The notes beneath the pieces are model-generated. The model searched no databases, had not been told where the DNA came from, and was given only the letters and a program-made list of their open reading frames with translations. Of a stretch of 18,627 bases of DNA, positions 224-17,600 are shown piece after piece. Position numbers and translations under genes: made by a program. Positions within the stretch are counted from its first letter, which is position 1. Every line of letters begins with the position of its first letter. The DNA comes from Planctomycetota bacterium. Lineage in GTDB: Bacteria > Planctomycetota > Brocadiia > JAJRTI01. The stretch covers positions 1 to 18,627 of the forward strand of contig JAJRTI010000094.1 of NCBI GenBank assembly GCA_024278415.1, written 5' to 3'.

Positions 224-938
224 TATAGCCGCGCAGATCGTGTTCCAAGTTAGCCATGAGTTGTTCCTCAATGCCTGCAAGCATGGGATCCGTGTCAAAG
301 GACCAATCCTTGCGCTTGGCCTCGATGGCCTTGAGACCTTCTTCTGCTCTTAGGAGCGCCTCTGCGGCTCCGATCTGAACCAGACAACGGGCCGCTCTGT
401 CGCCAAGAGGGCCGTCCAACTGCATGTCTTCCCAGTGCGCTACAGCTTCATCCCATTCACCACACCGGGCGTTCAGATCTGCAAGTACGCAGTGGAACAC
501 GTTCGCCTCTGCCTCAGACATGTCTTGAAGGTCAAATCCCTCCACTTGTTCACCAAGCGACTTGGCCTCATCGAGCCGACCGCACGCTAAAAGCGTCTCG
601 ATGGTGAAGAATGCGTCCTCTACGCTCTGGGGTTCTTCGGCCAGGTAGCTCTGTGCCTTTTCGAGATCGTCGGCCGTAAAGCTAAGCCGCAGCATGTCCA
701 GTCTCGCCGCCTCTTGGTCGTTTTGGGGAAGTCTCTCGTAAGCCGTGTCGATGGCTTTAAGCCAGCTCTGAACATTGTCGCTTCCTATGAGGATGGCTTC
801 AACGCAGGCATGAAAAACCTCTGCGCATATCCGTTCGTCTTGGAGCATGCTCCGAGCCTTCACCAGAGCCTGGTCATGCATGGCAAGCTCAATGGCGCCA
901 GAGAGTTCGCCGAGTTCCCTTCTGAGTTCATCGTTCAT
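162..938 (-). CDS. Soluble TPR-like helical protein, function unknown
   Basis: This is an acidic, almost entirely helical protein of about 258 residues with no signal peptide or membrane segment. Repeated helix pairs carrying small residues at TPR-like positions (for example the stretches around CGRLDEAKSLGEQ and RCGEWDEAVAHWED) suggest three or four degenerate tetratricopeptide repeats, the usual role of which is protein-protein binding. I chose the second of two adjacent ATGs (938; the other is 941) because GAGG then sits five bases upstream. The open frame extends further to a GTG at 1073, but that stretch is Trp/Cys/Arg-rich and unlike the rest. Codon use is visibly less GC-biased than in the large operon to its right, which suggests a different origin. 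It converges with the small ORF at the window start. No partner or pathway can be named. Confidence 0.75.
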   Translation of the reverse strand: MNDELRRELGELSGAIELAMHDQALVKARSMLQDERICAEVFHACVEAILIGSDNVQSWLKAIDTAYERLPQNDQEAARLDMLRLSFTADDLEKAQSYLAEEPQSVEDAFFTIETLLACGRLDEAKSLGEQVEGFDLQDMSEAEANVFHCVLADLNARCGEWDEAVAHWEDMQLDGPLGDRAARCLVQIGAAEALLRAEEGLKAIEAKRKDWSFDTDPMLAGIEEQLMANLEHDLRGYISALDAVVPQERRNEFGMEQ

Positions 939-941
939 CAT

Positions 942-1193
942 GTCCTCGTTTCTTGGGTGGCGGAAGGATTTGGCCAACGGGAGCAACCACCATCTAACCA
1001 CATCTGTCTGACAATTCCTTCCGCCAGAGACACACAAGCGAGAACATTCCGGCTTGCCCTGGCGCCATCGCACGAGCAGAGCCGGACCCTATCGTTCAAG
1101 GAGGTTAGGCGAAGATACGGACGCAGCAGGCGCATTGACAAGAATGGTCAATCGTTCATAGCGGATAACCGCCGCGCGGTCCGCCATCAACCA
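942..1193. other. Intergenic region between the TPR-like gene and the HEAT genes
   Basis: This is about 250 bp without a credible gene. A 67-codon minus-strand frame overlaps it, but its start has no ribosome binding site and its residue composition is not protein-like. The stretch should hold the promoter of the leftward TPR-like gene, but I found no clear -35/-10 pair. It should also hold the 3' end of the large leftward transcript. The GC-rich stretch 1160-1186 could fold weakly, but there is no T-run, so I do not call a terminator. Base composition changes within this region, marking the boundary between the GC-rich operon and the less GC-rich left end. Confidence 0.4.
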
Positions 1194-1847
1194 TCAGCCA
1201 TTCCCCTTCTCCTGCTCCAGCTTCTCCAGCGCCTCTTTGATCGCCTTCTGCACGTCCTCGTTCTCCTCCGCGGCAAGAGCCTTTTCGAGCATGGGCTTGG
1301 CCTCCGGCCACTTCAGCGCGGCCGCGGTCTTGGCCGCGTGGGAGCGCACCTTGGCGTGGTCGGCCAGCTCCGCGTCGGTCGCTTCCTCGTCCACGGGCTT
1401 GCTCGACAGCGCGCTCGCAATCGCCTTCAAGATGGCCGGCTTGTACTCGCCCACGTCTTCCATGCGGCCCGCGATCGAGAGGATCGCGTCCAGAGCGGAC
1501 AGCCTGAGTTGCGCGTCACGGATGGGGTCGGCGATCGCGGCGCACAGCGGCTCGACCGACGTCTCATTGCCGACCGCGGTGAGCACTTCCGCGACCCGAT
1601 ACACGTTCGCCTCGGCAAGCTGCGCGGTCACGCGCGTGACCTTGCGCGATTCGAGCGGGTCGCGCATGAAGTTCACGAGCAGGCCCACGTGCTTGCCCGT
1701 TTTGACTCCTTCGAGCCGGTCGAGGTAGGCACGCACGGCCGCGTCGTGAGCGGAGGTCAACTGGCCCACGCTTCGGATCACGACCACCACCGTGTCGTTT
1801 ACCACCAAGTCCGCCGAGACCTTGCCCACGGCCTTGCCTTCGAACAT
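1194..1847 (-). CDS. HEAT-repeat protein, C-terminal segment of a broken gene
   Basis: This is a 217-residue frame with HEAT-like helix pairs (for example TSVEPLCAAIADP with its following helix, and the C-terminal stretch KWPEAKPMLEKALAAEENED). HEAT repeats form scaffolds for protein binding. The first ATG is at 1847, but the same frame continues upstream without interruption for 46 further codons of fully coding-like sequence (AYRLQRELGAGL...KEWKVARAPAEDV) until the TAA at 1986-1988. That 46-codon stretch contains no ATG, GTG or TTG, and there is no ribosome binding site in front of the ATG. The segment therefore looks like the C-terminal third of the protein encoded by 1986-2897 and 2895-3506, all in one frame, rather than a separate gene. 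It ends with TGA. Confidence 0.6.
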   Translation of the reverse strand: MFEGKAVGKVSADLVVNDTVVVVIRSVGQLTSAHDAAVRAYLDRLEGVKTGKHVGLLVNFMRDPLESRKVTRVTAQLAEANVYRVAEVLTAVGNETSVEPLCAAIADPIRDAQLRLSALDAILSIAGRMEDVGEYKPAILKAIASALSSKPVDEEATDAELADHAKVRSHAAKTAAALKWPEAKPMLEKALAAEENEDVQKAIKEALEKLEQEKGNG

Positions 1848-1985
1848 TACGTCCTCGGCCGGGGCGCGGGCGACCTTCCACTCCTTTAGGCCTTCCGGCT
1901 TCAGCGCGGCCAGCTTGGCTGCGAACGCGCGCTTGTAGATCGGCTCCGCCAGGCCCGCGCCCAGTTCACGCTGGAGACGATACGC

Positions 1986-2876
1986 TTAGTCGGTGATGAC
2001 ATTGATCGTCTCCGTGGTCACGTTCGACGCGCCGTCGCCTTCCTGCGCCGAGCGGCGCAGCGCTCCGTTCAGGCTGTGCAATGTCGACGCGGCGGTCTTC
2101 TTGTTCTGGGCGAGCTGCCGCAACGCCCACTTGGCGATGGACCGGACTTGCTCGTCGTCGTCCTCCAGCATGGCGATCAGCGGACGCACCGCGCGGCGGT
2201 CGCCGTTTTTGCCCAACCAGAGCGCCGCGGTCACGGTGATATCGGCAAGTTCGTCTTCGCTGACGAGCGCGGTAATCAGCGCGCCCATGGCCACCTCGCC
2301 GCCGATGCGGCCGAGCGCGTTCACCGCGGCCCAGCGCACGTTCTTGTTGTCCGCGAGCGCCTGGTCGGTGAGTTGGTCTACGACCGTGCCGCCCACGTCG
2401 CCGAGGGCTTCCGTGGCGAGGAGGCGCACCTGGTTGCTCTTGACGCGCTCGTCTCGCTCGTAGGTCTTCTGCTTTTCCGCGAGTTCTTCTTCGGACAGCC
2501 CCTCCAGGTCCTCGACGTACCCGCTCTTGGTCAGGTTCAGCAGCCGGGTCACGGCATCCATGTCTCCCGTCTTGGCGAGTGCGCGGGCTGCGTAGACGGC
2601 GACGAGCGCGTTTTTGTCGGCCATGGCCTGGCGCAACGCGTCCCGGTTCTGCGGCCGGCGGATGTCGCGCACGGGCCGGTCGCCGATGGCCTTGCAGATG
2701 GCGGCGCGCATCTCTGCGTTCTCGCCGGGGCTCTTGAGCGTGGCAAGCAGGCGGTCGATGTGCTTGGGCTTGGTGATGCCGAGCAGGGCCAGCGCCTTAG
2801 CGGACTCGACGCGCACCTCCTCCCACTTTTCATCCTTGCACAGCAACAGGAACCCGCCGCGCTTTTTCTGGCCCAC
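1986..2876 (-). CDS. HEAT-repeat protein, middle segment of a broken gene
   Basis: This frame of 296 residues from a GTG at 2876 consists of HEAT-like repeats, each a helix pair with the typical VR..AA.ALG.IG pattern. The clearest are VRVESAKALALLG, VRLLATEALGDVG, VRWAAVNALGRIG and VRSIAKWALRQLA. There is no signal peptide. A charged linker (LEGLSEEELAEKQKTYERDE) divides two repeat blocks. Upstream, only six codons separate the GTG from a TAG at 2895-2897, which is in the same frame and is the stop of the lipoprotein gene. No ribosome binding site precedes the GTG. The C-terminus ends at a TAA, and the frame then continues as HEAT-type sequence. The whole is best read as the middle part of one long HEAT lipoprotein, or less likely as a separate cistron translated by reinitiation. 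Confidence 0.65.
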   Translation of the reverse strand: MGQKKRGGFLLLCKDEKWEEVRVESAKALALLGITKPKHIDRLLATLKSPGENAEMRAAICKAIGDRPVRDIRRPQNRDALRQAMADKNALVAVYAARALAKTGDMDAVTRLLNLTKSGYVEDLEGLSEEELAEKQKTYERDERVKSNQVRLLATEALGDVGGTVVDQLTDQALADNKNVRWAAVNALGRIGGEVAMGALITALVSEDELADITVTAALWLGKNGDRRAVRPLIAMLEDDDEQVRSIAKWALRQLAQNKKTAASTLHSLNGALRRSAQEGDGASNVTTETINVITD

Positions 2877-2894
2877 TTGCTGGGACAGCTTGGC

Positions 2895-3506
2895 CTAGAG
2901 TTGGTTCACAATCTCCTTCACGCCCTTGTCGAGCAGCGTGCCCGGTTTGGCCTTCTTGCGATATCGGTCGATGGTCGCGGCCGCTCGGTATTGGAGAGCT
3001 TTGAGCGCATCCCGCACTTGGGCCCGCACCGCGGGATCCTCGATTTCGGCATACATCATCATGAGGGGGTCGGCCACGCGCTCGTCGTCGTATGAGCCAA
3101 GCGCTTTGGCGATGTCCTTCAAGTAGGCCAGGTCGTCCTTGGGCCCCACGCTGCGCCGGTCGTCGGAGAGTGCAACCTTGATGAGCGACTCGACGGCTGC
3201 GTTGCGCGCTTGGGTCAGGAGAATGTCCTCCTTGCGGTCGCGTTCGCCGATGAGCCCGAGGATGCGCACGACGGACTTCTTGATCGCGCTGTCTGGCCGC
3301 GCCAGCTCTTTCGTGAGCGGCTCGACCGCGCTGAGCCCGGCCTTCACGAGCGCGTCTTGCGCCTCCTGGCGCTCTTTCTGCGTGCCGGTGCGGAGCACGT
3401 CGATCTGGTCCTCGACGTCGACGACTTTGGCGCACCCCGCCAGCAGGCCCGAGAGAGCCAGCAGCGGGAGCCACCGTCGGATGGCGATGTTTGCATGTTG
3501 CATCAT
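2895..3506 (-). CDS. HEAT-repeat lipoprotein
   Basis: The 203-residue product begins with a textbook lipoprotein signal: a basic N-terminus (IAIRRW), a hydrophobic core (LPLLALSGL) and the lipobox LAGC with the lipidated Cys at residue 25. The mature part contains HEAT-like repeats (KERQEAQDALVKAG, AIKKSVVRILGLIG, AAVESLIKVAL, VRAQVRDALKAL). The protein is expected to be anchored in a membrane facing the periplasm and to act as a binding scaffold; its partner is unknown. Its ATG overlaps the TGA of the SecD-like gene as ATGA (3503-3506), which implies translational coupling. The reading frame ends in TAG at 2895-2897, but HEAT coding sequence carries on in the same frame, so this may be the N-terminal third of a roughly 770-residue protein. 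Confidence 0.8.
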   Translation of the reverse strand: MMQHANIAIRRWLPLLALSGLLAGCAKVVDVEDQIDVLRTGTQKERQEAQDALVKAGLSAVEPLTKELARPDSAIKKSVVRILGLIGERDRKEDILLTQARNAAVESLIKVALSDDRRSVGPKDDLAYLKDIAKALGSYDDERVADPLMMMYAEIEDPAVRAQVRDALKALQYRAAATIDRYRKKAKPGTLLDKGVKEIVNQL

Positions 3507-4366
3507 TTCAAGGTTGCCTCATTGTTCGCGGCAGAGGGATCGTTCGTCGGTTTCAGCGCAACGGCCGCGGGCGGAGCGATACTCGCTCGGCAGGGCAGCG
3601 CGCCCATGCCCAGAAACGCGGCGATGTCGCGCGCCTGTTGCTTGAAGACAATGCCTTGGATCCAGACGCGGCCGCCAGTGATGGGTTTCTCCACGAGTGG
3701 CGCGGTGCGGATCTCGCCGTCCATGACCACCGCCAGATGCTTGCCCTGGCTGCGCTGCGTCAACTCGGCGAAGCGCTTCGCGTCGTCGGGGAGCATCTGC
3801 ACCTCGATAATCGGGTCGCGGCGCAACGTGCGGGTGGTGAACTTCACCGACTCGAAGCGCTCGATGGCCATGGCCGGCGTCTTGCTCACCAGGCGCGGCG
3901 TGTGCTTCTTCTCGATACGGCCGATGTGCTGCGTGCTGTAGAGCCACTGCACTTCGTCCAGCACTTCGGCGCCATCGGGCACGGGTTGCCCGGCCTTGGG
4001 CTGGTAATCGTAATCGAGCACGAGCCGCAGTTCGACCGCGGACCGGGCGAGGAGCGTCTTGATCAGGGGGTCGAGGTTCACGTGCGAGAGCAGGCGCATC
4101 TCCAACTTGTCCGGGCCCAGGACGGCCACGGAGTATTTTGCGACCGAATGGCGATCGCGCAGATACGCGATGCGTTCGCGAAGGATCGCCGCGCCCTGTT
4201 CGGCCGCGCCGGCGGGCAGCGGGCGATCCCCCACGGACGAGAGCTGCACCGGCACGACCCGCTCGACTTGCCGCATCCGCACCACCATGCGCATGCCAAG
4301 GGAGCCCAGCACTGTGGCGACGAGGCTGCCGATGAACAAGAACTTGAGCAGCTTGAGCATGCTCAT
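3503..4366 (-). CDS. SecD-P1-like periplasmic protein with a single membrane anchor
   Basis: This 287-residue protein has one N-terminal membrane segment (about residues 7-28) and then a soluble region. Residues about 58-92 (ILRERIAYLRD...KLEMRL) match the SecD pattern in which a Gly/Arg-rich helix precedes a strand. Residues about 188-258 match the SecD/SecF P1 head subdomain: a helix ending in FAELT, then GKHLAVVMDGEIRTAPLVE, GGRVWIQG and a helix ending in GALP. In SecD this domain grips substrates emerging from SecYEG. Real SecD is much longer and has six membrane segments; here all membrane segments except the first are absent, so it is a stand-alone P1-type module. The start at 4366 overlaps the upstream TGA as ATGA, and its own TGA overlaps the lipoprotein ATG in the same way. 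It presumably works with those two neighbours at the membrane. Its substrate is unknown. Confidence 0.8.
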   Translation of the reverse strand: MSMLKLLKFLFIGSLVATVLGSLGMRMVVRMRQVERVVPVQLSSVGDRPLPAGAAEQGAAILRERIAYLRDRHSVAKYSVAVLGPDKLEMRLLSHVNLDPLIKTLLARSAVELRLVLDYDYQPKAGQPVPDGAEVLDEVQWLYSTQHIGRIEKKHTPRLVSKTPAMAIERFESVKFTTRTLRRDPIIEVQMLPDDAKRFAELTQRSQGKHLAVVMDGEIRTAPLVEKPITGGRVWIQGIVFKQQARDIAAFLGMGALPCRASIAPPAAVALKPTNDPSAANNEATLK

Positions 4367-6513
4367 GGCTTGGCCTCCTCGCCGGCGGACTCCTCGCCCA
4401 GCAGGCCGAGCTTGGTCAGGTCCGCCCGGAACTGCAGGTTCGCGGCCTTCAGTTCCTCCAGGCCGCTGCGTGCGTCGCCGAGCGCGCTGTGCAGCGCCCG
4501 GCGCACGCGGAGCACGTCGGGGTCTTCGTCGGGGTCGCTGCCAGACTTGTCGTTTTCGGCGACCAAGTTCGCGCCGATCGCGGCGAGGCACAGGCCCGCT
4601 TCCGCTCGGCCGGTGCGCAACTGGCTCTCGAGCAGCTTCGTGTGGTCGTCCTTGGACAACTCCGCGGTCTCGACCGCCATGATCTGGTTGATCTCGCGGC
4701 GAGTCACCAGTTCCTCGATCGGCGGAATCGCGGCTCGGCCGATGTACACGAGCGCGCGGCGCACCGGGGTGCGCACCTCAGCAAACTCGTTGGACAGCAG
4801 CCGCACCAGATCGCCGGCGAGCATCTCCTCGTCACGCTGCTTCCAGATCAACGCGATCGCGCGCAAGTTGTTCACCTCTTCGCCCTGGGTGCGCCGGCCG
4901 AACTTGCCCCCTGCGAGGTCGACGACCTTTTTCGTGAACAACTCGGCCGCCTTCGCCACGTGGTCGCGAGAGCGTCGATACCGGCTCTGGAGGTGAAGGC
5001 ACTTGAGGGCCATGAACTCCCGCTGCGCCGACGTGATTGTTGCGAGCGGCTTGGTCTCGCCGTCCACAATCTCCGCGAGGATTTCGGGCAGCTTGGCGAC
5101 TTGGCTCCAGGTTTGGGCTTGGGCGTTCAGGTAGGCCGCTTGCCCGGCGGTGAGCGGTGCGCCGGCGGCCAGGGCTGCGCGCAGGGCGGACGCTTGCGCG
5201 AGCGACGCCCTCGCGCTCTGGCAGACCTCCTCGACGACTGAGGGCGACTCGGCCAACTCGGCCGGCAGCCACTCGGTGTCGCCCCATAGGAAGTCTTGGA
5301 GTTTTGTGAGCGCCGTATCCTCGGAAGCGCCTTCGAGCCCATTGCGCGGCTCCCAGCCGGCCACGCAGAATAGCGCGGCTTGCCGGGTCACGCCGGTGAG
5401 CTTCGCCTTGCCGGCCCGAAGCGCTTCGAGCGCGGCGCACAGCGACTCGATCTGCTCGCCGCGCAGGGCCTCGGCCTCGCGCCATGCTTTGAGAGCCGCG
5501 GCCGGCGCGGCGAACGAATTGCCGGCCGCGGCCGCGGCGAACGGATCCAGCAGCTCGCGCTGCCACGGTTCGAGGATGCCGTCACGCTCGACCTGGCTCA
5601 CATAGCGCTCGAGTTGCTCCATGCTGGTGGGTTCGAAGCGCAGGGTGGAGGACATGACCCCGCGCTTCTGGTGCCACTTGGCCTCGCGGCTTTGGAGGTG
5701 CTTGAGCGTGTTGCCAAGGATCTTCTGGTCGTTGCCGCCGACGATGAACGACGACTGGGGGCCATTCTTGGCGACCTTGTCCGCCAGGATCTGCGCGGCC
5801 TCCTCCTCCACGCCGGCCAGGCCCCGGACCTTGGCCGCGGCCAGGGTGAGGCCGCGCCACGTGCGGAAGGTCTGCGGCAGCGGCTCATCCTCCTGGGTTC
5901 GCGCCAAGAGCGCGCGCAATTCGGCGGCGAGCGCCTTGTCCTCCTCGCTGGCTTCGTCATCCGCCAGCACCGCGGCCGCACCCCGGTCGAGCCGTTGGCG
6001 CTGGTTGGCGCTGAAGTCGACCTCGCGCTGGAGGCACAGCCCCCGCAATCGTTTCACCAAGTCATCGACTCGCTTGCGGAACACCGGCTGTTCGATCACC
6101 GGCTTCTTCAGTTGGACAACCAGGTCGGGGATATACCGCACGTGGGGCCACATGAACGTGGCATCGAGCAGCCGGCCCGCCGCATCCCCGGCCGCGTGCT
6201 CCTGCCGCCGGGCGAGCAATTGGCTCAGGCCGCGGCAGAGCCGCATGTTGGCGTAGCGATGCTCCTCTTGGTTCAGCTCCTGCACCAAGTACAGCAGTGA
6301 GATGTATGGATCGCCGCGGTCGAGCAGGAGCTGGGTCTCCTCCTGGATCTTTTGAGGCGCCGCGTCGGGATCGCGATAAACCTCCAACACCTCGCCAATC
6401 AGGCGCTGCCGCTTCATGCCGCGCACCATGTACCAGCCGCCAATGGGCAGCCACACCGCGGACACGGCCACGACGATGCGGATAAAGATGCCGATGTGGA
6501 GGAAGCGTTTCAC
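4363..6513 (-). CDS. Membrane-anchored helical protein with HEAT-like repeat
   Basis: This is a 716-residue product of unknown function. An N-terminal membrane segment (about residues 6-28, IGIFIRIVVAVSAVWLP onward) is followed by a positively charged cluster (MKRQR) and then a long alanine- and glutamate-rich, mainly helical region. It probably crosses the membrane once. A recognisable HEAT-type repeat lies near residues 595-630 (LSNEFAEVRTPVRRALVYIG), linking it to the HEAT proteins downstream. The C-terminus is charged (GEESAGEEAKP). The start is a GTG at 6513, which keeps the membrane segment whole; no strong ribosome binding site is visible. Its TGA overlaps the ATG of the SecD-like gene. 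A 7-bp repeat array separates it from the transporter gene upstream, so it is the first gene of the left half of the string. Confidence 0.75.
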   Translation of the reverse strand: MKRFLHIGIFIRIVVAVSAVWLPIGGWYMVRGMKRQRLIGEVLEVYRDPDAAPQKIQEETQLLLDRGDPYISLLYLVQELNQEEHRYANMRLCRGLSQLLARRQEHAAGDAAGRLLDATFMWPHVRYIPDLVVQLKKPVIEQPVFRKRVDDLVKRLRGLCLQREVDFSANQRQRLDRGAAAVLADDEASEEDKALAAELRALLARTQEDEPLPQTFRTWRGLTLAAAKVRGLAGVEEEAAQILADKVAKNGPQSSFIVGGNDQKILGNTLKHLQSREAKWHQKRGVMSSTLRFEPTSMEQLERYVSQVERDGILEPWQRELLDPFAAAAAGNSFAAPAAALKAWREAEALRGEQIESLCAALEALRAGKAKLTGVTRQAALFCVAGWEPRNGLEGASEDTALTKLQDFLWGDTEWLPAELAESPSVVEEVCQSARASLAQASALRAALAAGAPLTAGQAAYLNAQAQTWSQVAKLPEILAEIVDGETKPLATITSAQREFMALKCLHLQSRYRRSRDHVAKAAELFTKKVVDLAGGKFGRRTQGEEVNNLRAIALIWKQRDEEMLAGDLVRLLSNEFAEVRTPVRRALVYIGRAAIPPIEELVTRREINQIMAVETAELSKDDHTKLLESQLRTGRAEAGLCLAAIGANLVAENDKSGSDPDEDPDVLRVRRALHSALGDARSGLEELKAANLQFRADLTKLGLLGEESAGEEAKP

Positions 6514-6540
6514 GGCAGAGGTTAGAGGTCAGAAGTCACT

Positions 6541-6680
6541 GGTCACTGGTCACTGGTCACTGGTCACTGGTCACTGGTCACTGGTCACTGGTCACTGGTC
6601 ATTGGTCATTGGTCATTGGTCATTGGTCATTGGTCATTGGTCATTGGTCATTGGTCATTGGTCATTGGTCATTGGTCATT
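6541..6680. repeat. Heptanucleotide tandem repeat, 20 units in two blocks
   Basis: This is a perfect array of 7-bp units: eight copies of GGTCACT (6541-6596) followed directly by twelve copies of GGTCATT (6597-6680). A degenerate half-unit precedes it and GGCCGCTGGTCAG follows. It fills nearly the whole gap between two genes of the leftward string. The two variants differ at one base and are segregated into separate blocks, which suggests two rounds of slippage amplification. A similar heptamer family (a TTGGTCA-type STRR) is known from heterocystous cyanobacteria. The unit is not a multiple of three, so frames read through it are artefacts. Confidence 0.97.
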
Positions 6681-6689
6681 GGCCGCTGG

Positions 6690-8660
6690 TCAGTATGGCA
6701 ATTGCGAAACCGCGGTTGCGATGAGTTTGATGGCGATGCAGACCATGCTCACGAGGCCAATGCCGCAGCCGTAGCCGGCCGCGAGAATGGGGGTGTACTT
6801 GCGCCAGTTCTCCGGGCCAAACTTTTTGGCGAAGTAGTAGCGCCCGACCAGCGCGGCGGTCAGCTCGGGGATCGCGTCGAAGGGGCTCCCAGCCAGGCCG
6901 CGAATCGTGCCATACACGAGCAGCGTGGGCCAACCGATGGACGCGAGCACCGCGTACGCGACGACGCCGTACGTGAGCCCCATGAACATGAACTTCGGTT
7001 TCATCGCCTCCAGGAAGAAGGCGTTGCCGGAGGTGGTTGCGGTCATCCAGAAGCAGCGGTTCACCGCCTGCAACGGCCAGAACCGCATGGCGTACGGGTA
7101 CGCGGCGGACGGTATCTCGCCCATGCGCCAGATGAACGACCAGAAGAAGATCGAGCAGAAAATAGCGAGCGGGATGTAGAAGAACTGGGCCTTGAAGATG
7201 CTCGTGAACTTCGTGCCGGTGAGTTCGAGTTGGCGGAATCCCTGGGCGCTGCCGCCCACGTCGTGCAACGGCATGGGCGCGTACCACACGTCGACGCCTT
7301 TGTAGCCGGTGAGGATGAAGCAAGTTTCCTTCACGTAGGGAAAGCCCACGCCGTGCCCGGTGAGCCCGACCATGCGCGCGGAGATGTAGGAGATGAAGGG
7401 CGTGTACACGTACCCGAAGACGAGCATGATCCAGATGGGGAATTTCGGCACGAGATAGTGCGCGAGCGCGATGACCCAGCTTGTTTGCACGACATAGACG
7501 AGCAGCGCGACCCAGATGGGAATGTCGCCCCGGCCCTTGGGCGGGTCGAGGATGCTGCGCTTCGAGCCCTCGCCCTTCTCCGCGGCCTCGCGTCTGGCCT
7601 TGACCACCGCCTTGGTCGCGGCATAGATGCCGATGAACGCGACGGCGAACGCGGTGCCCACGCCGAAGCTCATCCAGAAGTCCAGCCGATTGGCCATCAT
7701 GGTTTCGATCACGTCCATGCCGGGCTGCCAGCGCTGGAGCACGCCCGCGTGATACAGGATGGGGTTGAGGATCAACTGGCCTAGCACTCCGGCGACGAAC
7801 GACCCGACAATCATCCAGAACGGCAGCACCATGCCCGCGAAGACCTGCCCCAGGCTCGTGCTGCACGCGATGGGCACGGCCGGGAGCACGTCCCGGAAGT
7901 TGCGCGTCCAGTCCACGAACGGGATGGGGATGATGTAGAGCGGCTTGCCAAATACGACGTCGCTGAGCGTGGGCACGCCCACGTAGACCGCGCCGAACGC
8001 GATGCCGATGGTGGCGGCGATGCTGAAGCAGCGCCAGCGCCAGGTCTCCTTCTCGGCTTCTGCAAGCGCGGTCACACCGCGAGCGGCGATCGGCGCGAGG
8101 GGGAACGGGAGGCGCTCCACGTCGGACGTGACGCGGAAGAGCGCGTACCCCAGCGAGTAGAAAGTGAGCCGGCCCCACACCAGGCCCACGGCCATGATCG
8201 CGATGTGCGGCCACCAGTCCCGGTGCAGCAGGTCGCGCAGCTTGTACGCCTCGGAATCCGGCGGCGGCGCGACCCAGATGGGGATGCGCTGTGCAATGTC
8301 GAACGACCGAGCGGCCTCGGACTGCACGAGGTACTGCATGTGCACGAAGCCGCCGAACAATCCGCCAGCCGACATGCCAAGCACCCCGCTGGCCACGGAG
8401 AAGATGAGGATCATCTCCTGCTTCGTCGGGTAGCGGCGGCAGCGCTTCGCGATCTCGATGATCAGGATGAGCGTGACCCAGTCGGCGACCGCGCCCAGGC
8501 CTTGCCCCAGCATGAGGCTGATGTACATGGCCCCCGGCACGATGAAGAAGCCCACGAAGAGTCCGCCCAGCACGGCCATCCAGCCGAAGCCGTCCTTGAA
8601 CTCCTTCGGGACGTCATCGTCCTCACGTAGCGCTCGATATTCTTCTTCGGCTCCGCTCAT
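6690..8660 (-). CDS. OPT-like multi-pass membrane transporter
   Basis: This 656-residue integral membrane protein has a short charged cytoplasmic N-terminus (MSGAEEEYRALREDDDVPKE) and more than ten hydrophobic segments. It has the overall look of the oligopeptide transporter (OPT) superfamily and its uncharacterised relatives in Planctomycetes and similar bacteria (proteins labelled peptide transporter or DUF6784/DUF6785). Suggestive parts are the first segments with GGLFVGFFIVPGAMYISLML, the loop with VERLPFPLAPIAARG, and the C-terminal pair. The substrate cannot be deduced; peptides or metal chelates are typical for OPT. It lies 165 bp downstream of the 1777-residue fusion gene in the same direction and has its own candidate operator 22 bp upstream of the ATG. 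No strong ribosome binding site is seen. It ends in TGA directly beside the heptamer array. Confidence 0.8.
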   Translation of the reverse strand: MSGAEEEYRALREDDDVPKEFKDGFGWMAVLGGLFVGFFIVPGAMYISLMLGQGLGAVADWVTLILIIEIAKRCRRYPTKQEMILIFSVASGVLGMSAGGLFGGFVHMQYLVQSEAARSFDIAQRIPIWVAPPPDSEAYKLRDLLHRDWWPHIAIMAVGLVWGRLTFYSLGYALFRVTSDVERLPFPLAPIAARGVTALAEAEKETWRWRCFSIAATIGIAFGAVYVGVPTLSDVVFGKPLYIIPIPFVDWTRNFRDVLPAVPIACSTSLGQVFAGMVLPFWMIVGSFVAGVLGQLILNPILYHAGVLQRWQPGMDVIETMMANRLDFWMSFGVGTAFAVAFIGIYAATKAVVKARREAAEKGEGSKRSILDPPKGRGDIPIWVALLVYVVQTSWVIALAHYLVPKFPIWIMLVFGYVYTPFISYISARMVGLTGHGVGFPYVKETCFILTGYKGVDVWYAPMPLHDVGGSAQGFRQLELTGTKFTSIFKAQFFYIPLAIFCSIFFWSFIWRMGEIPSAAYPYAMRFWPLQAVNRCFWMTATTSGNAFFLEAMKPKFMFMGLTYGVVAYAVLASIGWPTLLVYGTIRGLAGSPFDAIPELTAALVGRYYFAKKFGPENWRKYTPILAAGYGCGIGLVSMVCIAIKLIATAVSQLPY

Positions 8661-8682
8661 GTGATCCGGGGGTTAGGCGTTA

Positions 8683-8700
8683 TCGACAACATGTTGTCGA
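8683..8700. promoter_or_regulatory. 18-bp perfect palindrome, candidate operator
   Basis: TCGACAACATGTTGTCGA is a perfect inverted repeat lying 22 bp upstream of the ATG of the OPT-like gene at 8660. The length, perfect dyad symmetry and position are what is expected of a site bound by a dimeric repressor or activator. I do not see the regulator gene in the window and cannot name its family; GntR- and LexA-type dimers use sites of comparable form. Confidence 0.5.
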
Positions 8701-8711
8701 TGTCGTGTCCG

Positions 8712-8796
8712 ACTCTTACTCTTAGCCTTACTCCTCCTCCGTGTCGTGCGATTAAGGAGGAAAGAGTAAGACTAAGAGTAGGACTAAGAGTAAGAG
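8712..8796. repeat. Long imperfect inverted repeat in the intergenic gap
   Basis: The left arm (about 8712-8740, C/T-rich) and the right arm (about 8757-8796, A/G-rich) are near-complementary around a loop of roughly 16 bases. Within them, 8713-8725 (CTCTTACTCTTAG) is perfectly complementary to 8784-8796. The right arm also contains direct copies of CTAAGAGTA. A transcript across it in either direction could fold into a long stem. It may be a mobile palindromic element; it has no T-run and is not a typical terminator. Confidence 0.7.
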
Positions 8797-8808
8797 AAGG
8801 AGGACAGC

Positions 8809-8821
8809 GGGGACAGTCCCC
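8809..8821. repeat. Short REP-like palindrome
   Basis: GGGGACAGTCCCC has a perfect 6-bp stem around a single A. It lies five bases beyond the stop codon of the 1777-residue gene. Short GC palindromes of this kind are typical of REP sequences moved by Y1 (RAYT-like) transposases, one of which is encoded at 17601-18056. It could also stabilise the 3' end of the upstream reading frame in the mRNA. Confidence 0.6.
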
Positions 8822-8825
8822 TTGG

Positions 8826-11800
8826 CTAGGCCGTCGCGGCCTGTGCGAGGCGCTCCTCGCCTTTCGCCGCCAGCTCCTTCTTGTGCTCGGAGGGCACTAG
8901 GCGCCACACGAGCAACTGTTTGCGAACCGCCCGCAGGAAGCCGGCGTTCATGCGCTGCCACATGTCTTGCTCGCCGCTCTCGCGGTGGATGTGGAATCGC
9001 ATGATGTGCAGGCGTTCGTCCGTGGGCGATGGGATGGTGTCGATGCGCACGCTCTGGCTGATGCCGGCGTCCAAGGGCGAGACCCACACGAGGGCTTCGA
9101 GCTTGTACGCACGATCGCCATCTGCCGGCTGGCCGGAGAGCCGCGTGTCTGCGGAGATGAACCGGCCAATCGAATCCTCGTCGTGCGCTTCGAAGTACTC
9201 CACGAGGAACATGTTCACCGCGAGCGCCTCTGCGGAACTCACCGTGAACGGGAAGTCGAAGTCCCAGTTGTCCCCCACAGCCTTGGGCAAGCGCATCTTG
9301 CGCGTTTCGTCGGGCACGGACAACTGGCCGGCTTTGCGCGCCGGGTAGATCGTGGACAGCAGCACGATGGACACGACGATCATGGTCGTCCACACCGCGG
9401 CGGTGGACGAGTAGTTCAGGTTCAAGCCCGTCATGATGCCGTGCATCGTGACGACCTTCGCGACGATTTGGCCCAGGAGGTAGCCCACAATCGCTCCGAC
9501 CACCGCAAACACCGACGACTCCGCGAAGAAGAGCGCGCCAATGTGCCCCGGCGCGAGGCCGACGGACGCGTAGATGAAGATCTCGCGAATCCGCTCGTAC
9601 ACGCTGCCCAGCATGGTGTTGAACACGATCAGCGCGGCGATGGCCATGGGCACGAGCAGCGCGCCCAGTCCTTTCACCGACAGCGCTCCGCGGGAACTGT
9701 AGAGATACGTCTCGCCCGCAACGCCCGCGAAGATGAGCAGGTTGATTTGCTCGACGTAGCGCTCCAGCACCCCCTTGATCTGCTCTTCCGTGCCTTCCAT
9801 GCGGACCGCGACCGAGCGTATCGTCGCGCCAATGCGCAGTGCGAAGTCGTTGGGCACAAGCAAGCACCAATCGGGCGGCATGTGGATGTAGAGGTCGGGC
9901 TTGAGTTCTTCCGCGAGCGACGCGGCGTCGCCCCCCTCCTTCGTCAGGTCAACCTGCGTGTCTTCGTCTTCCTCCTTACGCTGCTGCATTTGGATGTAGT
10001 CGACGGGTGTGATGGGCTCCTCGTCGAGGTCTTGGAGGCTGTAGAGGCCGCCGGTCTTGATCGCCGCGCCCGCGCGGAAACGGTTGTCTATTTCTTCCAC
10101 GGTGATGTGTGGCGGCGGGACGTCGGCAGTGGGATCGTTGACCTTCACCACCCGCGCCGTCTGCCAGCGCGCGCCCTCGACGATGCGAATCCAACTGCCC
10201 TCGACAACGCCTTGGTCCGCCACGTCGGACACAAGCGGCACGACCACGTTCTCCCCCGGCTTCAGGTTCTCCTTGGTCTTCGTGACAGTGTGGCCCTCCG
10301 TGTCGATGATGCCAATGACGGCCAGGTCGTTGCCCAGGACGCGAACCGTGTCGCCGACCTTCGCGTCCAAATCCGCGGCCATGGTCTGCGGCAGGATGCA
10401 GACGAAGGGGTAGTTCGCCATGCTCTTGTCGAACCACACCTTCTTCTCGCCCTGGATCATGTCGGCAATGGACCAGATATTGTTTTCGACCGGGTCGAGG
10501 CCGATAAGCCCGCGTGCGACGTACGTCTTGTCCGGGTTGCGCACGTTTTGCACGTCCAGGTGCAGGTATTCACTGCCGCTGGTGGAGCTGTACCAAGAGC
10601 GCAGCGCCACGACGCCGCCTTCCTCCTGGAAATGATTCCGTATGCTGTAGTAGGCATGCTCCTCAAACGGCGCCCAATTCTCCCGGCGCAGGAGGATGCC
10701 CTGGTACGGCGGCCGCCGCTCCATGGGCACTTCGTTGTAGCGCGTGGCGCTATCGAAGGACGTGAGCGAGAGGAGGCTGAAGGTGAGCAGCACGAGGGTG
10801 ACGCAGGTGAGCGTGGTGCGCACCTTGCGCTTGCGCATGTTCGAGATGCCGAGCATGAACGCGGCCACGGCCGCGCTCGCCCGGGCCACGTCCGCGCCGT
10901 GGATCGTCGCGGCCTGCCGCAGCGTGGCCATCTGGCTGTTGAACTTGTTCAGGATCAGCACGACCACGATGAGGCCGAGCGAGAACATGAAGAAGCCAAT
11001 GAGGATGATGATCGGCGTGGGCGAGATCTTGAACGCTGGGTGTACGTATCGCAGGATCATGTACACGAGGATGAAGATCGCGCCGATGGCCACCAGCCGC
11101 TTGCGAATGTCGGCCAAGCCCAGCAGCAGGCGCTCGGCGAAGATCACAAAGGGCAGCAGGATGGCGAAGTAGAAGATGACGCCCTTGACCACGTCGTTCT
11201 CGGTCGCGCGCACGGCCGGGTAGGCTTTGGCTTCGAGCGCCCACGCGGCGCGGGCGGACTTGAAGAACGTGTCGTAGTCCTCCTCCCACAGCGCTTGGTC
11301 CGCGCGCTCGATCATCTGCCGCGACTTGCGGTGGAGCTGCTCGACGCGCTTGTTCGTCACCCCGGTGGCCGCAAGCTGCTTGATCCGCGCATCGTCGAGG
11401 CGCCACATGTCCTTGGCGACCTTGAAGGAGGTGTGGAAGATGCTGAACTCCTTGCGCGTGCCGCCCGCGGACGGGTCGAAACCCCGGCCCAGCGGGTTGT
11501 CCTTGCCCCGCCACTCGATCGTCTCGAAGCTCCGCTGCACGCGCTCGTCCAGGCCCTCGAAGGTCGCCGCGGTCATCAGGCGCCGGCCGGCCTTGTCCGC
11601 GACCTCGACCACCTCCTGCTCCATCAGGTTCACGCGCTTGGGTTTGAATTCCTTGGCCGACTTGTGGCCGTATGCCGCGGGCCGGCTCTGCATGGACTCC
11701 AACATCTCTCGGGTCGCCAACTCGGGCCCGCGGTCGGTCTGCACCTCCAACAACTGGCTCGTTTCGAGCACGGGCCGGCGCATGAGCACCGCGCGGCGCT

Positions 11801-14159
11801 CCTGGAGGCTGAGCGAGTCGAAGGTCTCGGCGGACATGATCTGCACGCGGCCCGTATCGAGCACGACTTCATACAGCTCCATCGCGTTCAGCAGCGTCAG
11901 GCGCCGGCCCATGAGCCCCCCGGACATGGTCAGCTTGATGGGGATGCCCTTCTCGGTGTAGATGACCGCGCAGGGCTCCGAGTACGATCCGCCCGTCTTG
12001 CCCAGGAAGTAGGCGAAGTTCCGCGGTGCGGAATCCCGGCCGGCCTCCATCACGTTGATGCTCGACAGGCTCGTGTAGTTGAGTTGGTCGAGCAGGTCGT
12101 AAATCGTGGTGGACACGCAGGGGAACATGGACAGCCGCGCGTCGGTGCGCCGGTCGAGCCAGTTGCCGGGCCGATTCACGCGCAGGCCGCGGAGGCTCAC
12201 CCCCCCCACGCCCACCGTGCGTTTCATCTGCGGCGCGTATTCGACCGACCCGTCTTCTCGGTTCAAGAGGAACCCGTTCGCGCTCACGGGCCGGCCCGGC
12301 GGCTGCGACAGCCCCTGCACCTCGAACAGCGCGTTGCTGTCGCTCTTGACGTACACCGTCCCCCGCACTCCAAGGAGCGACTTGCTGGGGCTGAACTGCA
12401 CCGCGACCAGCGCGTCCGGGATCGCGGTCGCGGGCAGATAGGCGATGAGGTTGTCCTGCTGCGTCTTGCAGAAGGAGTCGCCCCACAGATCCTCCAAGTT
12501 TGCGGTCATGGGCATGGCCGGGTCGTTGCAGATGCCCGGCGCGTCTCGGTTCACGCCCATGAAGATCGCGATGAGCGTCTTGATCTGGTTCGTGAGGTTG
12601 CCCAGGTTCACCTGCCGGTCATCGTGGGGGTCGAACCGATCCATGGGCGTATCGACCACGTTGCGCGCGTCGTTGGTCGTCACAAACGCCACGCCGGGCA
12701 GGCCGCACAGGGTCACCACTTCGTTGTTGAGCGCGATGGGCGCCGGCAGGAGCGAGCGCCACTGCTTGCCCTTGCGCGGCACCACGCCGCTCAGCACCTC
12801 CGTGCGCGTCTCCTCGCCGATGGCCTGCGCCGCGTAGTCCGCGTAGGCCATGACCTTGTCGCCGATGAACCGAAACTCGCGCTGGAGCTTGATGTCGCCG
12901 TTGCCGTACTGGTCGTAGAAGTGGCCCTTGTAGAAGATGCCCAGTTGGTTCTGCCGGCTCGACAGATCGAGCGAGATGTAGAGGTGGCTCACGTCCTCCT
13001 CGCCGACTTGCTTCGCGGCGAGCCGGCTGCGCCGGGCCTTGACGATGGGCTGCATGTACGCGCGCATGCCAGCCAAGCTCTGGTGGTGGCCGGCGCTGGC
13101 GATGAACGTGACCGTGCGCCGCGGCAGGCTCTTGGTGAGCGCTTTAGCCAACTCGATGAGCGCGGTGATGCCGCACGCGGACTCCGCGCCGGGGGCCAAC
13201 GCCGGCACCACGGACATGGAGTCGTAGTACGCCTCGATGAAGACGGTCTCTTGCTTCAGCTCCGGATCCACGCCGTGGATCGTGCCCACGATGTTCCGCG
13301 CGTCGCACTCCTCCCACACCATGTCGGCTTCGAGCCGCACCGGGGGCAACGCCTCGCTCGCCGAGCGGTCGAGCTTGCCCAGGCGGGCCCGCACGTCTGC
13401 AACGCTGGCCCTGGCCGGGAGGTCGGGGAACAGTTTCCGGCCAAGCGCGACGAACTCCCGCTTCCCGATCCAGAAGCGCGGCATGTTGAGCGGCAGGAGG
13501 AGGAACTTCTCCTCCGCATCGCTGCGGAACGCGTAGTCCGGCTCGATGAAGATGACCGCGCTCGCACCCAGCATGGCCGCGTTGAGCCAGCGGGTCGAGC
13601 AGTCGAAGTCCATGAGCACAATGTTGCCTTCGACCGCCTGCTTACGGAACGCGGCCAGGTAGCCCGACCGGCCGTATACGAGTTTGCCCTTGAGGCCCCC
13701 CTCGGGCAGCTTGGGCGTGCGCACGAGGTTCGGCCACACACAATGGAGCGTGATCGACGCCGCGCTCCCCCCTTCGCCCACGGTCAGGTAGGCGGCCTTC
13801 TCCACGGGCACCACCACCTTGAACTCGCCCTCCGCGCTCGTGCCCACGTCCTCTAGGCCGATCTCGCGGAACCGCTGCTCGATGTAGTCCGCCGCGGCCA
13901 CGCATCCGGGGTAGCCGGTGACGCGGCTACCCATGTTCGTGAGCCGCTCCAGCGTCTCGGCCGGGTTGATCCCTGCAAAGACGCGCTCCAGTTCCGCGGT
14001 GTAGCGGTTCTGGGCGCTGGCGCGGGGCGCGAGGCAGGCCAGACCGATCGCCGCCAGCAGGGCGACCACCGGCCACGGACAGCCGGACACCTCCCGGCTC
14101 GCGCCGGATCGAGGCGCAGGCAAGCCCACGTGCGTCAGGATGTGCTTAGGCGATACCAT
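8826..14159 (-). CDS. Degenerate M28-like peptidase domain fused to FtsX/MacB-like permease
   Basis: This is a 1777-residue envelope protein. A signal-peptide-like stretch lies at residues 29-49, ending in RASA before Gln50. Residues about 55-540 have the M28 aminopeptidase layout with a PA-like insertion (about 140-270). The zinc site is lost: the AHxDS motif reads AYYDS (310-314), the GAxDNxSG motif reads GAESACG (324-330), and the catalytic Glu-Glu pair is His358-His359. It should therefore bind rather than cleave, at least by the M28 mechanism. Residues about 540-990 are unrecognised. Three membrane segments follow (about 993-1076), then an FtsX-type permease: first segment after KRKVRTTLT (about 1110-1133), a large extracytoplasmic domain, and three terminal segments (about 1493-1611) with YERIREIFIYASVGL typical of FtsX. 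FtsX-type permeases normally need an ABC ATPase; none is in the window. It lies between two OPT-like genes in the same direction and ends in TAG. The true start could be a little downstream of 14159. Confidence 0.85.
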   Translation of the reverse strand: MVSPKHILTHVGLPAPRSGASREVSGCPWPVVALLAAIGLACLAPRASAQNRYTAELERVFAGINPAETLERLTNMGSRVTGYPGCVAAADYIEQRFREIGLEDVGTSAEGEFKVVVPVEKAAYLTVGEGGSAASITLHCVWPNLVRTPKLPEGGLKGKLVYGRSGYLAAFRKQAVEGNIVLMDFDCSTRWLNAAMLGASAVIFIEPDYAFRSDAEEKFLLLPLNMPRFWIGKREFVALGRKLFPDLPARASVADVRARLGKLDRSASEALPPVRLEADMVWEECDARNIVGTIHGVDPELKQETVFIEAYYDSMSVVPALAPGAESACGITALIELAKALTKSLPRRTVTFIASAGHHQSLAGMRAYMQPIVKARRSRLAAKQVGEEDVSHLYISLDLSSRQNQLGIFYKGHFYDQYGNGDIKLQREFRFIGDKVMAYADYAAQAIGEETRTEVLSGVVPRKGKQWRSLLPAPIALNNEVVTLCGLPGVAFVTTNDARNVVDTPMDRFDPHDDRQVNLGNLTNQIKTLIAIFMGVNRDAPGICNDPAMPMTANLEDLWGDSFCKTQQDNLIAYLPATAIPDALVAVQFSPSKSLLGVRGTVYVKSDSNALFEVQGLSQPPGRPVSANGFLLNREDGSVEYAPQMKRTVGVGGVSLRGLRVNRPGNWLDRRTDARLSMFPCVSTTIYDLLDQLNYTSLSSINVMEAGRDSAPRNFAYFLGKTGGSYSEPCAVIYTEKGIPIKLTMSGGLMGRRLTLLNAMELYEVVLDTGRVQIMSAETFDSLSLQERRAVLMRRPVLETSQLLEVQTDRGPELATREMLESMQSRPAAYGHKSAKEFKPKRVNLMEQEVVEVADKAGRRLMTAATFEGLDERVQRSFETIEWRGKDNPLGRGFDPSAGGTRKEFSIFHTSFKVAKDMWRLDDARIKQLAATGVTNKRVEQLHRKSRQMIERADQALWEEDYDTFFKSARAAWALEAKAYPAVRATENDVVKGVIFYFAILLPFVIFAERLLLGLADIRKRLVAIGAIFILVYMILRYVHPAFKISPTPIIILIGFFMFSLGLIVVVLILNKFNSQMATLRQAATIHGADVARASAAVAAFMLGISNMRKRKVRTTLTCVTLVLLTFSLLSLTSFDSATRYNEVPMERRPPYQGILLRRENWAPFEEHAYYSIRNHFQEEGGVVALRSWYSSTSGSEYLHLDVQNVRNPDKTYVARGLIGLDPVENNIWSIADMIQGEKKVWFDKSMANYPFVCILPQTMAADLDAKVGDTVRVLGNDLAVIGIIDTEGHTVTKTKENLKPGENVVVPLVSDVADQGVVEGSWIRIVEGARWQTARVVKVNDPTADVPPPHITVEEIDNRFRAGAAIKTGGLYSLQDLDEEPITPVDYIQMQQRKEEDEDTQVDLTKEGGDAASLAEELKPDLYIHMPPDWCLLVPNDFALRIGATIRSVAVRMEGTEEQIKGVLERYVEQINLLIFAGVAGETYLYSSRGALSVKGLGALLVPMAIAALIVFNTMLGSVYERIREIFIYASVGLAPGHIGALFFAESSVFAVVGAIVGYLLGQIVAKVVTMHGIMTGLNLNYSSTAAVWTTMIVVSIVLLSTIYPARKAGQLSVPDETRKMRLPKAVGDNWDFDFPFTVSSAEALAVNMFLVEYFEAHDEDSIGRFISADTRLSGQPADGDRAYKLEALVWVSPLDAGISQSVRIDTIPSPTDERLHIMRFHIHRESGEQDMWQRMNAGFLRAVRKQLLVWRLVPSEHKKELAAKGEERLAQAATA

Positions 14160-14171
14160 AATGGGAGGAAA

Positions 14172-16160
14172 CTACTCCGGCATGATTCGCACGGCCGCGC
14201 CGGTCTTGCCGGCGATGAGGCCCACGATGATCCAGAACGCGCCCATGCACAGATCGCCCAACACGCCGCCCATGAAGAAACCGCGCATGCGCTTGTAAGC
14301 GCCGCCGCCGCCGTACTTGAGGATGCACGCCTTGATCATCCAGCCCAGCATGATGCTGAACCAGAAGTGTTCCATCGCAAAGCTGTTCGCCATGAGCAGC
14401 CCAAGGGGGTGCAGCGGCCACCAGTAGTAGCGCCCGGCCATGCCGAAGAGGAACGCCATGAGCGACGCGCCCCACGCCATGTAGCCCACGTTCGTCCAGA
14501 TCGTGCCTTGCGGGTTGCGCAGCATGTTCGCGACCGGCCCCATCTTGAACGGGAACACCGTGCGCATGCCGAACCCGTTGCCGGCCAAGTTGAGGCCGCC
14601 GTACTTGTAGGTGAGTGCGAGAGACGCGTAACCCGACAGCAGCACCGTCACCACGATGCTCAGAACCATCGCGTAGAACAGAGACTTGCGCCGCACGTTC
14701 GGCCCGTCGGTGATCTTCATCGAGTTCATGATGCTGGGCATCATGGTCTCGCGCGCATCGTGAATGAAGATGATGTTCTGGATCGTCAGCAGAGCGACGG
14801 TGCCCGTGCCCACCGCGCCGGGGCCGAGCGTGGTGGTCATGATGTCGTACGGGGTGAAGTTCTGGTAGATGAACAGCAGCCCGCCTTGGGCGATGAGCCG
14901 CGTGAGGCACAGGAGAATCATGAGCATCAGCAGCGTGGCGATGAAGCTCATGAAGAAGTTCATGCCGATGATCGTGCACCACACCGTCATGCCCAGCACG
15001 GCGCCCGCGAGCCCGAACACCGCGGTGCGGTAGCTGAAGCACTCGGACGAATCGTCCACGTTCGGGTCGCCATGCCAGGCCTTGCGCCACACGTCGGCCA
15101 GGTGCCGACGCCCGCGCCAGAGCAGCAGTGCGGCGAACACCAGAAACGCACCCGCCTGCTGGTGGATCGCGAACTTGCCCCAATACCCGCCCGCGTTCCA
15201 CGTGCGGCCCAGCAGATTGCCGGTGATAAACTCGCCCTGGAGGAACAGGAAGAAGAACCAGAAGCTGAACGACACCTCCAGCGTCAGCAGGTAGCAAAAG
15301 CCGATGACGGCCGGGTAGAACCGCAGCGCGATGCGGCCCACCGCATTCCACGGCGGATCGTGGAAGAGCTGCTGGACCGGGATCGTCATGGGGATCGTCG
15401 GCACCCAGTTGTGGTAGCTGTGCAGGCCGTTGAGGCCGTGGATCACCACGGGGATCGCAAAGCCGATCCAGAGGAGTCGGTCACGGAAGAACGCATTGAC
15501 CAGCCGGCCGGGCTCAGGCTGCCGGGCCATGTCGAGGGGCACGATGGTGAGCGGGAAGTTGAGCCGCTCCTGATCCACCCACTGCTTGCGCAGAATCACG
15601 CAGAGGCAGAACATGCTCCAGTAGAGCAGCCCCACGAACACACTCCAGATGAGCATGGGCACGCGCCACGCGCTCCAGGGGATGCTCATGCCCTCAGGCA
15701 AGCCCTCGAAGAAGTACTTGATTACCTTGCTATTGGGATCGGTGCTCGGCACCAGCCACTTGGGGATGTGCTGGAGGAACAGCGCCTCCCACTGGTTCTC
15801 CTGCGTGGCGTAATAGTAAGGCCCCACTTGGAGCGAAAACCAGTAGCGCATGAGCCCCGACGACGGAATGCCCGATGCCACGATCATCATGCACCAGATG
15901 ACGATCAGCTCCCCAGGCGACAGCTCTCGCCCCGGCGCAAGCCAGCGCAACAGCACGTTGACCCCCAATATCAACACCACGAAGATGAAGACCGCACCGA
16001 GCGGGAAGTGGTTGCCCGTGATGAACGTGCCGTTGAGGTAGTAATCGTTGTAAGGAATTGCGAACGCAAAGAGCGCCATGATGGCGACGCCAATCACGAC
16101 GGAGCGCACCGTGACCGGGCTGTGTGTGCGTTCCGTGTTGAGATCGTGGCCTTCGGGCAT
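14172..16160 (-). CDS. OPT-like multi-pass membrane protein (DUF6785 type)
   Basis: This membrane protein of about 662 residues has more than ten hydrophobic segments. The first carries AFAIPYNDYYLNGTFITGNH, a PYND plus GNHxPLGA arrangement that I associate with the DUF6785 family, distant relatives of OPT transporters found in Planctomycetes, Armatimonadetes and related groups. The substrate is unknown. It is the first gene after the promoter at 16249-16277 and is followed after 12 bp by the M28/FtsX fusion, so the two are surely co-transcribed. I chose the ATG at 16160 because the family usually starts close to the first membrane segment. An ATG at 16214 adds 18 Arg-rich residues but has a GAAGG three bases upstream and lies about 28 bases from the predicted transcription start, so it remains possible. 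The gene ends in TAG. Confidence 0.82.
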   Translation of the reverse strand: MPEGHDLNTERTHSPVTVRSVVIGVAIMALFAFAIPYNDYYLNGTFITGNHFPLGAVFIFVVLILGVNVLLRWLAPGRELSPGELIVIWCMMIVASGIPSSGLMRYWFSLQVGPYYYATQENQWEALFLQHIPKWLVPSTDPNSKVIKYFFEGLPEGMSIPWSAWRVPMLIWSVFVGLLYWSMFCLCVILRKQWVDQERLNFPLTIVPLDMARQPEPGRLVNAFFRDRLLWIGFAIPVVIHGLNGLHSYHNWVPTIPMTIPVQQLFHDPPWNAVGRIALRFYPAVIGFCYLLTLEVSFSFWFFFLFLQGEFITGNLLGRTWNAGGYWGKFAIHQQAGAFLVFAALLLWRGRRHLADVWRKAWHGDPNVDDSSECFSYRTAVFGLAGAVLGMTVWCTIIGMNFFMSFIATLLMLMILLCLTRLIAQGGLLFIYQNFTPYDIMTTTLGPGAVGTGTVALLTIQNIIFIHDARETMMPSIMNSMKITDGPNVRRKSLFYAMVLSIVVTVLLSGYASLALTYKYGGLNLAGNGFGMRTVFPFKMGPVANMLRNPQGTIWTNVGYMAWGASLMAFLFGMAGRYYWWPLHPLGLLMANSFAMEHFWFSIMLGWMIKACILKYGGGGAYKRMRGFFMGGVLGDLCMGAFWIIVGLIAGKTGAAVRIMPE

Positions 16161-16248
16161 GTGCTCGGGTGCGCTCCGGATACTCCTACAATGACGTCCC
16201 GCCCGCTTCGGCATTCGCCTTCACAGAATCTGCGAGCAAAGGCGCGGC

Positions 16249-16497: not shown

Positions 16498-17148
16498 GTG
16501 CCGAACACTATTGGCCGGCAGCCCCGTATTGCGCCCCGGCGGGAGGGCGCCGCCATCGGTTTTGATCTCTCAGACCTGGCGGAGATGCGCGTTACGGACA
16601 ATGAGTTCGCTGACGTTTCAGTGAAGGAGGGGGATCTGGTTGTCTGCGAGGGGGGCGAACCGGGCAGGTGCGCTGTATGGCAAGACAGCCGCATGTCTAC
16701 TGCAATCCAGAAGGCCCTACATCGAGTCCGACCCTGGGGTAGCATTTCCCCCTGGTATCTGGCCTTCCACCTAGGGGCTGACGCGAACTCAGGCAGGCTG
16801 GCCGCCGCGTTTACGGGCTCAACCATCAGGCACTTCACCGGCCAATCGCTGAAACGCCATGCAGTTGCACTCCCGCCACTGGCGGAGCAAGACAGCATTG
16901 TCAGCGAGGTCCAACGACTGCTCTCCTTGGGGGAGTTCGCCGACCAGCAGACGGAAGGCGCCCTCCTGCGCAGTGAACGCCTCCGCCAGTCCATCCTCAA
17001 ACGCGCGTTCGAGGGCAAGCTCGTGCCGCAGGATCCGAACGACGAGCCAGCGAGCAAGCTGCTGGAGCGGATCAAGGCGGAGAGGGAAGCCGCCGAGGCG
17101 AAGCCGAAGAAGACCAAACGCCGCAAGACTAAATCTTCATCCCGGTAG
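16498..17148 (+). CDS. hsdS: 5'-truncated type I restriction specificity subunit (HsdS)
   Basis: HsdS chooses the DNA site for type I restriction-modification. The 216 residues correspond to the C-terminal half of a normal HsdS (usually 400 residues or more). They include part of one target recognition domain (DLSDLAEMRVTD, then GDLVVCEGGEPGRCAVW at 45-61), the conserved LPPLAEQ motif (125-131) leading into a coiled helix, and the usual tail SILKRAFEGKLVPQDP with a Lys-rich end. A GTG at 16498 has GGGGAGG eight bases upstream, so the fragment may be translated. Homology appears to continue upstream in another frame: 16524-16562 reads P-Y-x3-A-x5-R-F before a TGA at 16563, and removing one T from the run 16560-16563 would join it to FDLS. 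The first recognition domain is missing. It is probably a remnant that could not give normal specificity alone, though half-length HsdS proteins can dimerise. Confidence 0.75.
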   Translation: MPNTIGRQPRIAPRREGAAIGFDLSDLAEMRVTDNEFADVSVKEGDLVVCEGGEPGRCAVWQDSRMSTAIQKALHRVRPWGSISPWYLAFHLGADANSGRLAAAFTGSTIRHFTGQSLKRHAVALPPLAEQDSIVSEVQRLLSLGEFADQQTEGALLRSERLRQSILKRAFEGKLVPQDPNDEPASKLLERIKAEREAAEAKPKKTKRRKTKSSSR

Positions 17149-17167
17149 ATCGCGCGGCTTTGTCCCT

Positions 17168-17321: not shown

Positions 17322-17373
17322 AAGCAGACGAGACGCGCATCCCGGCAACAAACCGCCCCCGCCCGACACCAAC

Positions 17374-17428: not shown

Positions 17429-17451
17429 GAAACCGCGCCCCCACCCCACAC

Positions 17452-17582: not shown

Positions 17583-17600
17583 GGGGCGGATCGTTTCGCG

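Follow-up and report, generated by a model that had tools for sequence, protein, structure and literature searches.

A gene for an exported lipoprotein made of HEAT repeats, with a GxxExxY domain set among them, is the last of three overlapping genes and appears to have recently gained two nonsense codons by point changes in a Planctomycetota bacterium; we give this reading a probability of slightly less than 60%. The gene lies on the minus strand of an 18,627-nucleotide stretch of DNA, the whole of which was analysed and is hereafter called the window. Its translation is colinear with five uninterrupted proteins, and the sequence past each stop still has the properties of coding DNA.

The interrupted frame and its surroundings

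Read from 3506 to 1194 on the minus strand, the frame continues in phase through a TAG and a TAA to a TGA, with zero frameshifts. Translated, this segment comprises 771 positions; the TAG and the TAA are its only internal stops, and the final TGA is at 1194-1196. The former gene therefore counts 770 codons, the two internal stops included, followed by TGA. These results confirm two claims of an earlier note on this DNA: a single in-phase frame crosses both stops without a frameshift, and the first 46 codons after the TAA hold no ATG, GTG or TTG. The features of the locus are as follows.

3503..4366, minus strand: upstream gene, SecDF P1-head protein of about 287 residues (PF22599, 64.7 bits); its stop codon and the start codon of the HEAT gene share bases (ATGA)
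1194..3506, minus strand: originally one gene, for a HEAT-repeat lipoprotein that includes a GxxExxY/PDDEXK_3 domain (translation; five uninterrupted relatives of 764-769 amino acids)
2898..3506, minus strand: piece 1, 203 codons, with the signal peptide of a lipoprotein followed by HEAT repeats (PF13646, 30.4 bits, cut-off 27.7)
3432..3443, minus strand: lipobox L-A-G-C at codons 22-25, identified by eye; its A, G and C are the same in all six sequences
2895..2897, minus strand: internal stop 1, TAG, codon 204; Ser in all five relatives (translation, alignment)
1989..2894, minus strand: piece 2, 302 codons, HEAT repeats (PF13646, 86.3 bits, and PF03130, 55.5 bits, each exceeding its cut-off)
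1638..2006, minus strand: GxxExxY/PDDEXK_3 domain, interrupted by the TAA close to its N-terminal end (TIGR04256, PF13366; the boundary ahead of the TAA taken from the alignment with P0001, the closest relative)
1986..1988, minus strand: internal stop 2, TAA, codon 507, within the GxxExxY domain (translation, alignment)
1197..1985, minus strand: piece 3, 263 codons, remainder of the GxxExxY domain, then HEAT-like sequence up to the C-terminus (HEAT_2 at 26.1 bits, slightly below the cut-off of 27.7)

The in-phase openness beyond each stop exceeds chance, as a frame open over piece 2, or over piece 3, was obtained in only 22 of 5,000 order-1 Markov sequences in each case. The GC3 of pieces 1, 2 and 3 (0.84, 0.89 and 0.88) is near the 0.87-0.91 of the four large genes at 4363-16214, lower values being found in the SecD-like gene (0.78), the transposase gene (0.70) and a frame at 162-1073 (0.62). 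The sequence is thus coding-like throughout, as the earlier note had proposed; its description of HEAT sequence on both sides of each stop needs correction, since what follows the TAA begins in the GxxExxY/PDDEXK_3 domain and becomes HEAT-like only later. A GTG occurs in phase at codon 7 after the TAG (2876), and the first ATG, GTG or TTG after the TAA is the ATG at 1847, codon 47 after the stop.

Upstream, the order is a gene for a 716-residue protein, the SecDF-P1-head gene and the HEAT gene, with ATGA overlaps at 4363-4366 and 3503-3506. Because of these overlaps, the three genes look like one transcription unit in which the HEAT gene would be read last. For the 3503-4366 protein, the Pfam scan found no other SecD domain and the NCBIfam SecD/SecDF matches were far below cut-off. 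Promoter and terminator scans of positions 800-4000 gave counts near those of shuffled sequences (1 versus 0.4 and 4 versus 3.3, respectively). No tRNA genes, and hence no suppressor tRNAs, were found in the window, nor did it contain any Rfam match at the gathering threshold.

Elsewhere in the window, about 21 head-to-tail copies of the 7-base unit GTCATTG, with 99% matches, occupy positions 6535-6682, between the genes at 4363-6513 (716 residues) and 6690-8660. At 17129-17635, several frames are open on both strands, with recurring NPEGVRPQSPGLRR-like and TLKAFHNR-like peptides (by eye); this stretch looks like an intergenic repeat and adjoins an IS200-type transposase gene at 17601-18419 (Y1_Tnp). 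The plus-strand open reading frame at 16498-17148 resembles, by eye, the C-terminal region of a specificity subunit of type I restriction systems, with no Pfam match at 0.001.

Slippage works through frameshift. Phase variation by this route, in line with the phase-variable loss that had been suggested for the HEAT gene, was rejected: the frame contains no frameshift, and none of the three tandem-repeat rows in the window (default score, at least 50) falls within 1194-3506.

Domains of the uninterrupted protein

The protein carries what reads as a lipoprotein signal peptide, with the lipobox Cys in place. Piece 3 matches TIGR04256 with 57.4 bits (cut-off 35) over profile positions 10-115 of 116, starting from the first residue past the TAA, and PF13366 with 57.4 bits (cut-off 22). 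In the intact relatives, the PF13366 match begins at profile position 3-4; piece 3 therefore begins inside the profile and the TAA cuts a conserved domain. The window domain is thus above both curated cut-offs of GxxExxY proteins (TIGR04256 / PF13366 PDDEXK_3); unlike these profiles, which are 116-117 positions long, it sits within a HEAT-repeat lipoprotein. GxxExxY domains are mostly stand-alone, and an embedded position in an exported HEAT-repeat lipoprotein, as observed in the window and in the relatives P0001-P0005, is an unusual setting.

The Asp of the 'AD' motif in the GxxExxY part is invariant in the six sequences. The catalytic Lys of the family belongs to an ExK motif, and none of the six shows a Lys at the presumed place of this motif. 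With no Lys at that presumed place, the GxxExxY part probably lacks DNA-cutting activity. The whole protein is likely a membrane-anchored scaffold outside the cytoplasm, to judge only by its HEAT repeats and lipobox.

A structure model of P0001, built from five sequences, reached a mean pLDDT of 67 and a pTM of 0.43; the segments in which pLDDT fell below 50 include 488-522 and 568-643. Helices run throughout the HEAT parts. A Foldseek search with the model returned HEAT/ARM-type and designed alphaRep proteins as the 50 matches listed, and a sequence profile of the relatives gave 24 matches, mostly designed alphaRep HEAT proteins. The model supports a predicted helical repeat protein and is too weak for the GxxExxY part. 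P0001 residues 201 and 504, which align with the two stops, lie in predicted helices (188-209 and 494-512, respectively), pLDDT being below 50 around the second.

One protein or three

To what extent the three pieces represent one protein was assessed with the read-through translation as query, which retrieved 11 proteins at E<=0.001 among 7,994 candidates scored. Five of these are full-length relatives of 764-769 amino acids, with BLASTP identities of 67-74% over 96-99% of the query; the remaining six are other HEAT-type proteins covering 9-53% of it. In the alignment, P0001-P0005 are 66-73% identical to the window sequence, share with it their length, the HEAT-GxxExxY-HEAT domain order and the lipobox Cys, and differ from it in being free of internal stops, all five being continuous across both sites. 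The TAG column holds Ser in every relative, whereas the residues at the TAA column are Glu, Ala, Glu, Asp and Glu in P0001 to P0005, respectively. Either stop is a single base substitution away from codons for residues found in relatives at that site, and the 13 residues directly past the TAA (AYRLQRELGAGLA) match the closest relative at 13 of 13 positions.

When pieces 1 and 3 were each searched alone, only the window's own pieces were matched and no piece-sized relatives were found (for piece 3, the best 8,000 of a larger number of candidates were scored, a depth at which weak relatives may be missed). No DNA encoding a relative was present among the genome-contig pattern matches (15, then 62) or the viral-contig matches (193). 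Homologues existing as three separate proteins were thus not encountered with the full frame or with pieces 1 and 3. These data indicate that the locus is one gene with two nonsense codons and not three genes, in agreement with the earlier note, which had proposed one former protein: aligned with its homologues, the conceptual translation finds five single proteins running through both sites. A disabling change where orthologues are intact, which defines a pseudogene or nonsense allele, is therefore present here, the five close relatives all being intact.

It is very improbable that the gene has instead been split into three separate working proteins. An SD-like GAGG does precede the ATG at 1847, but a third piece starting there would begin in the middle of the GxxExxY domain, no clear SD-like sequence is seen by eye before the GTG at 2876, the close relatives are single proteins in five of five cases, and the searches with pieces 1 and 3 returned no relative of matching size.

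Age and origin of the two stops

The pattern of substitution was compared at the 465 columns that are fixed in P0002-P0005. The window has 20 unique changes at these columns and P0001 has 32 (4 versus 7, 12 versus 11 and 4 versus 14 in pieces 1, 2 and 3, respectively), i.e., there is no excess of change in the window sequence after the stops. The mean BLOSUM62 score is -0.05 for the 20 changes of the window versus 1.06 for the 32 changes of P0001 (Mann-Whitney p 0.009), and the 13 leave-one-out changes of P0002 average about 0.15, close to the window's value. The less conservative changes of the window are a hint of lifted constraint and speak for a nonsense allele, as they are expected where constraint has just been lifted. 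Against a nonsense allele stand the unique changes, which are not raised (20/465 versus 32/465), the undisturbed GC3 and the lack of any frame-shifting indel in the gene. Stop-creating substitutions make up 221 of the 6,912 single substitutions in the frame (about 3.2%), so that two stops gained by neutral decay would be accompanied by some sixty substitutions, and an indel would probably have arisen as well. These observations fit both base errors and a very recent loss in which the second stop may have followed the first. Of the causes named in the earlier note, very recent decay or sequence error is the likely one.

A base-calling or assembly error, or a mixed-strain consensus, the gene being intact in the living cell, is a possible but unlikely origin of the stops. 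The same three observations (no frame-shifting change, unique changes not raised, normal GC3) agree with it, as does the presence of two odd codons side by side at the first site, where the TAG is adjacent to an Ala codon at which the five relatives have Asp. On the other hand, two nonsense errors about 900 bases apart would have occurred in this gene, yet the seven other genes examined show no internal stop in 4,648 codons. By length, both stops would land in the HEAT gene 2.0% of the time; this argument is weak, as the chance that two random stops fall together in one of the eight genes, whichever it is, is about 18%. A real nonsense allele is favoured over base error, though not firmly. Neither stop looks like a natural end, as the TAA cuts the GxxExxY domain and both aligned P0001 sites are in predicted helices.

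If the nonsense codons are real, two point changes would have placed them in a single lipoprotein gene; translation would stop at the TAG and leave a 203-residue lipoprotein fragment with the first HEAT repeats only. Full function would then be lost, so recently that the sequence past the stops still appears coding.

The downstream pieces look constrained, as would be expected if ribosomes passed the stops with low efficiency, so that less full-length protein is made, and if the stops were short-lived nonsense alleles under continued selection, as PMC7918605 proposes for bacteria. We regard such readthrough as quite unlikely: the losses at two successive, different stops would multiply, all five relatives lack both stops, and constraint remaining from before a recent mutation would look identical. 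The suggestion of readthrough made previously thus finds no support beyond the intact-looking downstream sequence. Still more doubtful is a version with two genuine, leaky stops, in which the short lipoprotein fragment together with a trace of full-length HEAT-GxxExxY protein would represent a dosage setting still under selection.

Reassignment of TAG and TAA to amino acids in the source organism was set aside as scarcely credible, because (i) TAG is the stop codon of two of the seven other genes and (ii) internal TAG or TAA codons are absent from these seven genes. In the DUF6785/DUF6784 gene, the TAG comes 10 residues after the Pfam match, whose last residue is 670 of 680, which argues that TAG acts as a terminator at the natural C-terminus of that protein. 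The residues of the relatives also differ between the two sites (Ser versus Glu/Ala/Asp). It is true that the in-frame stops of the HEAT gene are TAA and TAG, that the HEAT gene and five of the seven others end in TGA and that, with none of the seven ending in TAA, the evidence from terminator use covers TAG only. False calls of stop reassignment arise from in-frame stops and contamination, according to PMC8629427, and nothing in the window calls for reassignment.

The preferred reading, a recent nonsense allele, has counterparts in other bacteria. In PMC7918605, in-frame stops in bacterial genes are described as widespread and mostly short-lived, frequent readthrough is proposed, and in-frame stops with dN/dS below 1 are reported. 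The HEAT gene resembles the nonsense-interrupted genes, or young pseudogenes, presented there in having stops in an otherwise intact frame that is coding-like on both sides. It differs from that set in carrying two stops and in having no relative that shares them; the filter described there retains stops common to two or more species, and those of the HEAT gene are not among such stops.

A single search of the open-access literature for 'HEAT repeat', 'lipoprotein' and 'PDDEXK' together found no paper, and the intact family, in which a GxxExxY domain is embedded in an exported HEAT protein, may be an uncharacterised one. A nonsense-interrupted gene is ordinary as such; here, the five intact relatives show what was lost, and interrupted and intact forms would make a clean test pair.
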